Source of the DNA: an uncultured Cytophagaceae bacterium
GTDB taxonomy: Bacteria > Bacteroidota > Bacteroidia > Cytophagales > Spirosomataceae
DNA: 15,070 nt
Assembly (NCBI GenBank): GCA_938008575.1
Contig: CALLKB010000264.1
Location: 1-15,070 of the forward strand
Direction: 5' to 3'
Part shown: piece after piece, positions 8,864-9,687 of the stretch
Layout of the letters: each line of letters begins with the position of its first letter
Position numbering within the stretch: the stretch's first letter is position 1
Notes under the pieces: model-generated
Told to the model about the DNA's origin: nothing
What the model saw: the letters and a program-made list of their open reading frames with translations, nothing else
The model's database searches: none
Translations under genes and position numbers: made by a program

Positions 8864-9328
8864 TTAAAATAAAGGCGTATTTCGTATTAAACTTTCTTCC
8901 AATGAGATAAAAGTCTCCGTTCGCTGAATACCTGTTACGCGTTGAATTTTATCATGAAGTACTTCACGAAGGTGTTGGGTATCCCGACAAATAATTTTAG
9001 CAAAAATACTGTAAATACCGGTCGTATAATGGATATTAACTACTTCTGGAATAGCTTCCAATTGTTTAGCCACATCCTCATACAAGGAGCTTTTGTCTAA
9101 ATAGATACCTAGGAAAGCTGTAATATCCCAGCCAATTTTGGAATAATCAATTAATAACTGTGCCCCTTTAACGATTCCTAAAGATTCCATTTTTTTCATT
9201 CGAACATGAACGGTTCCCCCGGATACATCTAATCGTTGGCCTATTTCAGTATAAGGCAAATTCGCATCTTCTACGAGTATTTCTAAAATCTTATAATCTA
9301 AAGGATCTAAATCCGCTTTCTTGTCCAT
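8864..9328 (-). CDS. Lrp/AsnC-family transcriptional regulator
   Basis: A 154-aa regulator of the standard Lrp/AsnC size. Residues about 8-55 form the AsnC helix-turn-helix (LDYKILEILVEDANLPYTEIGQRLDVSGGTVHVRMKKMESLGIV). Residues about 65-145 form the RAM ligand-binding domain, with the usual GIYLDK, GIYSIFAKIIC and GIQRTETFISLEE strands. Such proteins respond to amino acids as dimers or octamers. It lies upstream of sufB on the same strand (78 nt) and diverges from the tRNA-like RNA unit that begins about 100 nt away, so it could bind the shared intergenic region; no operator was recognised. Target genes are unknown. Confidence 0.9.
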   Translation of the reverse strand: MDKKADLDPLDYKILEILVEDANLPYTEIGQRLDVSGGTVHVRMKKMESLGIVKGAQLLIDYSKIGWDITAFLGIYLDKSSLYEDVAKQLEAIPEVVNIHYTTGIYSIFAKIICRDTQHLREVLHDKIQRVTGIQRTETFISLEESLIRNTPLF

Positions 9329-9397: not shown

Positions 9398-9429
9398 TTT
9401 GAAATAAATAAAAACATCTTTTATATTTG
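9398..9429 (+). promoter_or_regulatory. Promoter of the tRNA-like RNA (Bacteroidota -33/-7)
   Basis: TTTG (9398-9401) and TATATTTG (9422-9429) are separated by 20 nt, matching the Bacteroidota consensus TTTG-N17-23-TAnnTTTG exactly. The predicted transcription start, about 5-8 nt downstream, would give a leader of roughly 30 nt before the mature 5' end at 9465. No coding region lies between it and the terminator at 9654-9682, so it drives the RNA alone. Confidence 0.75.
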
Positions 9430-9464: not shown

Positions 9465-9607
9465 TGTAGGGTGATGAAATTGGCAGACGTGCCCTCCTGT
9501 CTCGGGGGTGGTGAGTTCAGGATAAACACGGCATAATGGGTTGACCACTAAATCAGTTCTGTGTCGCGGCTAACTGCACCTTGGAGGTTCGAATCCTTCT
9601 CCTACAG
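9465..9607 (+). tRNA. tRNA-like RNA, GUC anticodon, leucine-like body, 74-nt variable arm
   Basis: All four canonical arms close. Acceptor: TGTAGGG (9465-9471) with TCCTACA (9600-9606), one G-U pair. D arm: ATG/CGT around a loop with GG. Anticodon arm: CCCTC/GGGGG (9492-9508) with loop CTGTCTC and anticodon GTC at 9499-9501. T arm: GGAGG/CCTTC with loop TTCGAAT (9583-9599). Discriminator is G9607; full CCA is not encoded (GCA follows). The D-arm string ATGAAATTGGCAGAC resembles tRNA-Leu, but G73, G2-C71, GUC and C38 are AspRS identity elements. Positions 9509-9582 replace a normal variable arm: GGTG/CACC and AGTT/AACT at the base (one bulged G), then ACACGG/CTGTGT (9526-9531 with 9559-9564) and an apical hairpin region. 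At 143 nt it is far longer than any ordinary tRNA. It has its own promoter and terminator. A normal decoding role is doubtful; it could be a functional tRNA mimic, an unusual tRNA-Asp, or a decaying gene. Confidence 0.75.
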
Positions 9608-9653
9608 CATTTTAATTAATTTGGTTTTTAGTTTGTTGATGAAGTGTAATGTT

Positions 9654-9687
9654 AAAAGCAATCTTATTTTAGGATTGCTTTTTTTAT
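9654..9687 (+). terminator. Intrinsic terminator of the tRNA-like RNA unit
   Basis: AAAAGCAATC (9654-9663) pairs perfectly with GATTGCTTTT (9673-9682) around a 9-nt loop, followed by more Ts. It lies 47 nt after the tRNA-like 3' end. With the promoter at 9398-9429 it defines a primary transcript of about 250 nt and separates it from the peroxiredoxin gene. Confidence 0.8.

Follow-up and report, generated by a model that had tools for sequence, protein, structure and literature searches.

A conserved tRNA-like RNA of Bacteroidota and phages with a giant variable arm and tRNA-Asp-like identity bases

The window analyzed here is a stretch of 15,070 nucleotides from an uncultured Cytophagaceae bacterium, and it contains, at positions 9465-9608 of the plus strand, an RNA that forms a full tRNA-like cloverleaf (Table 1). 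The gene is flanked on one side by SufB and a regulator of the Lrp/AsnC family (minus strand) and on the other by a 1-Cys peroxiredoxin. Upstream of the RNA stands a TAnnTTTG box, which we take to represent the Bacteroidota-type -7 consensus, and boxes of this type are found at a comparable distance from the RNA in many relatives. Given this box and the terminator-like hairpin downstream, the RNA looks like an independent transcript. In several genomes, GTTCTT(T) lies just 5' of the RNA (leaders of L058, L064, L073, L080, L081, and L084), presumably a boxA-like element reminiscent of rRNA antitermination leaders. Downstream of the RNA, the window, most same-genus genomes, and genomes G041, G053, G247, G306, and G412 share an identical 22-nt trailer. 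It is also present at a second locus in several same-genus genomes (L101-L108), where it is accompanied by a terminator-like hairpin and no tRNA-like RNA, as if it were part of a separate small RNA.

Table 1. Features of the tRNA-like RNA and its surroundings, in window coordinates
Feature	Position	Strand	Basis
Lrp/AsnC-family regulator, divergent neighbor	8864..9328	-	Pfam AsnC_trans_reg, HTH_AsnC-type; synteny
-7 box TATATTTG (TAnnTTTG), predicted promoter of the RNA	9422..9429	+	sequence
Acceptor stem, 5' strand (U1-A72, G2-C71, U3-A70), 7 bp	9465..9471	+	comparison, covariation
D arm, 3 bp (9474-9476/9488-9490), loop AAATTGGCAGA, tRNA-Leu-like, with G18 and G19	9474..9490	+	
Anticodon arm, 5 bp (9492-9496/9504-9508), loop 9497-9503 CTGTCTC (G34 U35 C36 U37 C38)	9492..9508	+	
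Giant variable arm, stem 9510-9513/9577-9580 (GGTG/CACC), bulge 9514-9518	9510..9580	+	
Variable arm, inner part: 2 bp 9519-9520/9574-9575, asymmetric 6x4 internal loop GATAAA 9521-9526/CTAA 9570-9573, apical region			
Apical motif TGGGTTGACCA (GG-UNGA-CC, hairpin-like)	9537..9547	+	
T arm, 5 bp (9583-9587/9595-9599), loop TTCGAAT	9583..9599	+	
Acceptor stem, 3' strand 9600-9606, discriminator G73 (9607), C74 (9608)	9600..9608	+	
Conserved 22-nt trailer TTAGTTTGTTGATGAAGTGTAA	9628..9649	+	comparison with relatives
Terminator-like hairpin and T run	9654..9685	+	sequence

A preliminary description, made from the sequence of the window, had proposed a tRNA-like RNA in which a branched arm replaces the variable loop, and this proposal is supported by the relatives, by covariation, and by the lack of an Rfam match. 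The acceptor, D, anticodon, and T stems are present in the 7/3/5/5 geometry that it reported, the elbow bases of the T and D loops are in place, and 74 nt (9509-9582) do separate the anticodon stem from the T stem. Its model of the arm stands for the outer GGTG/CACC helix and has to be revised further in: single-sequence folding does return the proposed AGTT/AACT helix with a symmetric 5x5 loop, but comparison favors the 2-bp step and 6x4 loop of Table 1. Throughout the class, the arm follows one plan, in which GGTG/CACC is followed by a bulge of 4 to 5 nt, 2 bp, the conserved internal loop, and an apical part whose length differs greatly between copies. The internal loop reads GAUAAA/CUAA in the window; one phage group has a loop that is related to it but not identical. 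The GG-UNGA-CC apical motif is conserved in most viral copies and in some of the cellular ones. The gene encodes no full CCA and stops at G73-C74; most ordinary tRNA genes of the related genome G008 likewise stop at N73-C74. Two cellular copies (L032 and L041) show a 2-nt UU bulge in the T stem.

Both-sided changes occur in 18 of the 30 pairs in an alignment of 16 cellular members, and 93.7% of the cells are paired, with none of 500 shuffles reaching any of five covariation measures for this structure, which was drawn from the same 16 sequences. Pairing in the top helix of the arm reaches only 59.7% of the cells, a low value that we put down to misaligned arms of different length. For the phages, 25 members were hand-picked from 78 for diversity, excluding copies with an extra D-loop hairpin; 23 of 31 pairs changed on both sides, 99.0% of the cells were paired (0/500 shuffles), and pairing dropped to 46-53% when slid by one column. 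The core pairs of this second test came from the cellular model, and the apical AGGA/TCCT helix was read from the viral set itself. Covariation in the extra arm, for which the preliminary description had proposed to search relatives, is thus found in cellular and viral sets alike. The folding free energy is no better than that of shuffled sequences (z of 0.05 for the RNA of the window and of -0.05 for the arm alone) and therefore uninformative, so that the support for the fold is the covariation.

The RNA is called by neither ARAGORN nor Rfam. ARAGORN found no tRNA in the window and none in 17 loci of relatives. None of the 4227 families of Rfam release 15, the tRNA family RF00005 included, reached its gathering score in the window, and the six matches at E<=10 comprised no tRNA family. 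In G008, 34 RF00005 matches leave out the RNA at 2374748-2374905. In the titles and abstract openings of the open PMC literature, we recognized no earlier description of this RNA, and one may exist.

The locus is present in close relatives, as the preliminary description required: BLASTN found it in 44 of 59 related genomes, comprising 31 of the 37 same-genus genomes and 13 of the 22 that belong to other families of the order, and the six same-genus genomes without a match are 62-86% complete. A covariance model built from 16 members (R1) was then run on 392 sampled Bacteroidota genomes, scoring the eight best first-look candidates per genome, so that weak or short forms may be missed. Scores of at least 93 bits were obtained in 42 genomes, all within seven families, where they represent 42 of the 48 genomes. 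The next scores were 73 bits, for a 77-nt armless form in G048, and 67 bits, for an 87-nt match in G408; matches at 62 bits or less mostly measure 82-88 nt, which is tRNA-Leu by length, and one such viral match is called tRNA-Leu by ARAGORN. Named carriers include Chitinophaga, Dyadobacter, Spirosoma, Algoriphagus, Cyclobacterium, Niabella, Neolewinella, and one MAG labeled Ignavibacteriales; among the matches listed (the best 80 of at least 120), all carriers are Bacteroidota, judged from their names. Cellular RNAs are 109-211 nt long (155 distinct copies) and occur in places as tandem copies, and plasmids gave no match to the RNA. It is thus a conserved RNA class of Bacteroidota that Rfam release 15, at gathering score, and ARAGORN do not call.

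A divergent match to the AsnC family, at a distance of 122-253 nt, accompanies the RNA in 44 of 60 loci of the A3 set, eight of which come from the genus of the window, in 50 of 75 cellular loci of the named (A5) set, and in none of 69 viral loci, counting loci with enough upstream sequence; it is accordingly absent in 16 A3 loci, in 25 A5 loci, and in all viral loci counted. The AsnC orthologue is retained in genomes G048 (60% identical) and G061 (63% identical) with no RNA body beside it, which indicates that the RNA is not needed everywhere; promoter- and trailer-like remnants, judged by eye, persist next to the gene. The armless form of G048 (L075, 1138-1214) lies away from its AsnC gene and was the sole R1 match in a scan of AsnC-like loci. 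R1 matched nothing in 24 loci of AsnC-like genes taken from genomes without the RNA, of which L408, a contig end of a carrier, is uninformative. A motif near TTGAATAATTTGCAAA, with at most four mismatches, is found upstream of 49 of 108 copies with an adjacent AsnC gene and 17 of 58 without (6-7% in shuffled sequences), and of 0 of 59 viral copies. We do not claim an operator, since this motif may be part of the promoter.

Viral contigs matched the RNA pattern at at least 120 places, and the 80 loci that were fetched comprised 78 full-length RNAs, one cut at its 3' end, and one of only 46 nt. Ordinary tRNA or tmRNA genes were found on the fetched piece in 45 of the 78 loci (at least three in 22 of them, a tmRNA in 7), and 253 of these 254 genes lie on the same strand as the RNA; the gap to the nearest one is exactly 4 nt in 14 loci and at most 25 nt in 30. 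Within four open reading frames of the RNA, we found genes for terminase (22/78 loci), portal (11/78), PhoH-like (10/78), and thymidylate synthase (8/78), the neighbor clusters being named from one scanned member each and a fifth cluster giving no family. We discarded a prophage attachment site as the reason for the viral copies, as these hold the RNA at full length, in tRNA arrays or near phage genes. In an annotated phage collection, the sole match was a 72.7% identical copy in a 636-kb record of an uncultured phage. In some viral copies (L238, L257, L273, L288, and L300), the D loop is enlarged by an additional hairpin-like insert, and four viral loci (L240, L245, L280, and L307) hold a 91-nt form with a minimal arm.

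Many viral arms also contain palindromes of 6-12 nt, of many different sequences (e.g., L285, L229, and L257). Among copies with the GACCA motif, palindromes of at least 6 nt are present in 46 of 51 distinct viral segments (shuffle mean of 22.1, maximum of 32) and of at least 8 nt in 36 of 51 (mean of 6.6, maximum of 15), whereas cellular arms show no enrichment (13 of 70 segments; shuffle mean of 20.8). These figures represent no probability, since the shuffles were single-letter ones, the cut was crude, with some segments reaching the T arm, and related sequences were counted separately. A palindrome that changes in sequence from one viral arm to the next is a hint of dimer formation.

The bases conserved in the RNA resemble the identity set of tRNA-Asp. 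PMC6523644 gives GUC, G73, G2:C71, C38, and G10 as the identity elements of Escherichia coli AspRS, and PMC9976931 describes G34 as a strong aspartate determinant. Four of the five elements (GUC, G73, G2-C71, and C38) are present in the window and in most members; the fifth, G10, is replaced by A in the window and is a minority base among 155 cellular copies ending in GC (A in 111, T in 39, G in 5). We collected 228 distinct members (166 cellular and 62 viral), and 226 of them could be parsed, here without the filter on the GC end. All 226 have U35, C36, and C38, a count in which the viral (A4) and named (A5) copies had been retrieved by means of a pattern fixing GGCAG and GTCTCG; in the A3 set, which did not depend on this pattern, U35, C36, and C38 occur in 76 of 76 parsed distinct copies, G34 in 70 (another base in 6), and G2-C71 in 75 of 75 uncut copies. 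Apart from two copies truncated at a contig end, all members have G73-C74. When the 33 ordinary tRNAs of G008 were scored for six single features, tRNA-Asp alone showed them all and tRNA-Glu came next with four, a result unchanged by the automatic reading of base 73, which is off for a few tRNAs such as Ser(gct). Differences from tRNA-Asp are the U1-A72 pair, the usual lack of G10, the pyrimidine at position 37, the class II body, and the giant arm. No extra class II D/K/N synthetase was found in carriers: all 17 genomes have three strong PF00152 matches. Of the 12 non-carriers, 10 have three and the others, G064 and G132, have two, with weaker extras in some genomes of both groups. The idea of an additional AspRS-like enzyme in carriers was rejected.

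The body of the RNA, in contrast to these bases, resembles tRNA-Leu in its D arm with an AATTGG-type loop and in its long variable arm, with two unpaired bases, often GT, between the arm and the T stem; it differs from tRNA-Leu in the NUC anticodons in place of a Leu anticodon, in G73 rather than A73 in every uncut copy, in Y37, and in a distance from anticodon to T stem of 74 nt in the window versus the usual 10-24 nt given in the preliminary description. In a comparison of cores with the 33 G008 tRNAs, the best scores were those of tRNA-Leu(tag), 13.0, and tRNA-Ala(tgc), 11.5. Based on the Leu-like D loop, the two bases after the arm, and the best core score, descent from a tRNA-Leu gene is likely, though unproven given the close score of tRNA-Ala(tgc).

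A loop fit for decoding would have U33 and a purine at 37, and the anticodon loop of the class departs from this. Position 37 is a pyrimidine in all 226 parsed members (U in 219, C in 7), whereas the loops of the ordinary G008 tRNAs, as printed, have a purine there in 32 of 33 cases, tRNA-Lys being out of register. U33, which the preliminary description had called correct, is so in the window and does not hold throughout the class: another base stands there in 31 of the 155 cellular and in 4 of the 61 viral copies ending in GC. The constant pyrimidine at 37 and the relaxed position 33 make decoding unlikely, and we infer that the RNA is a substrate or ligand of AspRS rather than a decoder. That it might still be an unusual tRNA reading the Asp codons GAY under special conditions, as the GUC anticodon of most members would allow, is quite improbable in view of these loop bases and of the ordinary tRNA-Asp found in G008 and in 5 of the 20 viral loci that were scanned.

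Among the other explanations, two merit the most attention. The RNA might be a structural or regulatory molecule that is not aminoacylated and keeps the tRNA fold for stability and processing, its Asp-like bases serving another end such as pairing of a UCUC loop with a target. This would fit the variation of position 34 in several lineages, which leaves U35-C36-Y37-C38 as the real invariant, the absence of G10, and the occurrence of the conserved 22-mer trailer alone at another locus; yet G2-C71 and G73 are invariant too, and the acceptor end in which they lie is remote from the loop; we regard this explanation as rather unlikely. Alternatively, the same identity bases could let the RNA bind AspRS in order to titrate or sense it, without carrying aspartate, at a level set by the AsnC-family regulator next door. 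A precedent exists in mRNAs that mimic tRNA to bind their own synthetase, yeast AspRS included, as described in PMC9976931. However, such a decoy would need neither a conserved G73-C74 end, nor embedding in tRNA arrays, nor a conserved internal loop in its arm, and the gain for phages is not evident, which makes it an unlikely account. Improbable is a decoy against anticodon nucleases or other tRNA-targeting defenses, one that would protect or replace tRNA-Asp in hosts and phages: it is suggested by the tandem cellular copies and by the phage copies in tRNA arrays, but no recurrent toxin or nuclease was recognized among the neighbor clusters, inspected by eye, and the RNA occurs in most genomes of whole families with a recurrent regulator as its neighbor. 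A pseudogene or chance fold could be argued from the unremarkable folding energy and from the silence of ARAGORN and Rfam; it is contradicted by covariation and by conservation across families and phages, and we give it almost no credence.

Known atypical RNAs offer partial parallels. The T4 genes rnaC and rnaD (species 1 and 2, NC_000866) also specify stable RNAs, of 139 and 119 nt, within a phage tRNA cluster, and rnaC (L433, 1409-1547) ends in a T-arm-like hairpin, CCGGG-TTCGAAT-CCCGG; neither gene matches Rfam or R1, which does match T4 tRNA genes. Another tRNA-like RNA, tmRNA, combines an mRNA part with AlaRS identity and lacks an anticodon arm, which is complete in the RNA described here. 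Allo-tRNAs and other tRNAs with novel cloverleafs, atypical bacterial tRNAs found by genome mining, have altered acceptor/T-stem lengths (8/4 or 9/3); in contrast, the present RNA keeps 7/5 stems, and the change sits in its variable arm.

Our preferred reading, which we hold tentatively, is that of a tRNA that can be aspartylated but does not decode, and whose giant arm would act as an effector. In this proposal, a stable tRNA-like RNA of Bacteroidota, probably derived from a tRNA-Leu gene, would be transcribed as a unit of its own in cells and as part of tRNA arrays in phages and would be trimmed and CCA-tailed like a tRNA. AspRS would recognize it via G73, G2-C71, the GUC anticodon, and C38, and it would not decode codons. 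The long arm with its GAUAAA/CUAA loop would be the effector part, binding a protein or RNA partner and steering the RNA, aspartylated or bound to AspRS, toward a function other than ordinary elongation. Its dose in cells would probably be set by the divergent Lrp/AsnC regulator, and large phages would bring their own copy together with their tRNAs and, in some, a tmRNA. Points against this proposal are the missing G10 of most members, the six A3 copies with a base other than G at position 34, the lack of an extra class II D/K/N synthetase in carriers, the two genomes with an AsnC gene and no RNA body beside it, and the cellular and viral loci in which no AsnC gene adjoins the RNA. A bolder version, possible but in our opinion doubtful, is that of a dedicated non-decoding aspartyl-tRNA, core to several Bacteroidota families and controlled by an amino-acid-sensing AsnC-type regulator. 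Once charged with aspartate, the RNA might use its giant arm to feed a non-ribosomal reaction or control translation; phages would carry the RNA as an element of their translation kit, and the palindromic arm may pair two copies into a dimer.

Together, our results establish the fold, conservation, placement in tRNA arrays, synteny, and identity pattern of a phage-borne RNA class without a call by Rfam release 15 or ARAGORN. If charged, it would represent a tRNA recruited out of decoding and the transfer of one tRNA's synthetase identity onto the body of another, and its phage copies could help to find out which components of the translation machinery are replaced by phages.
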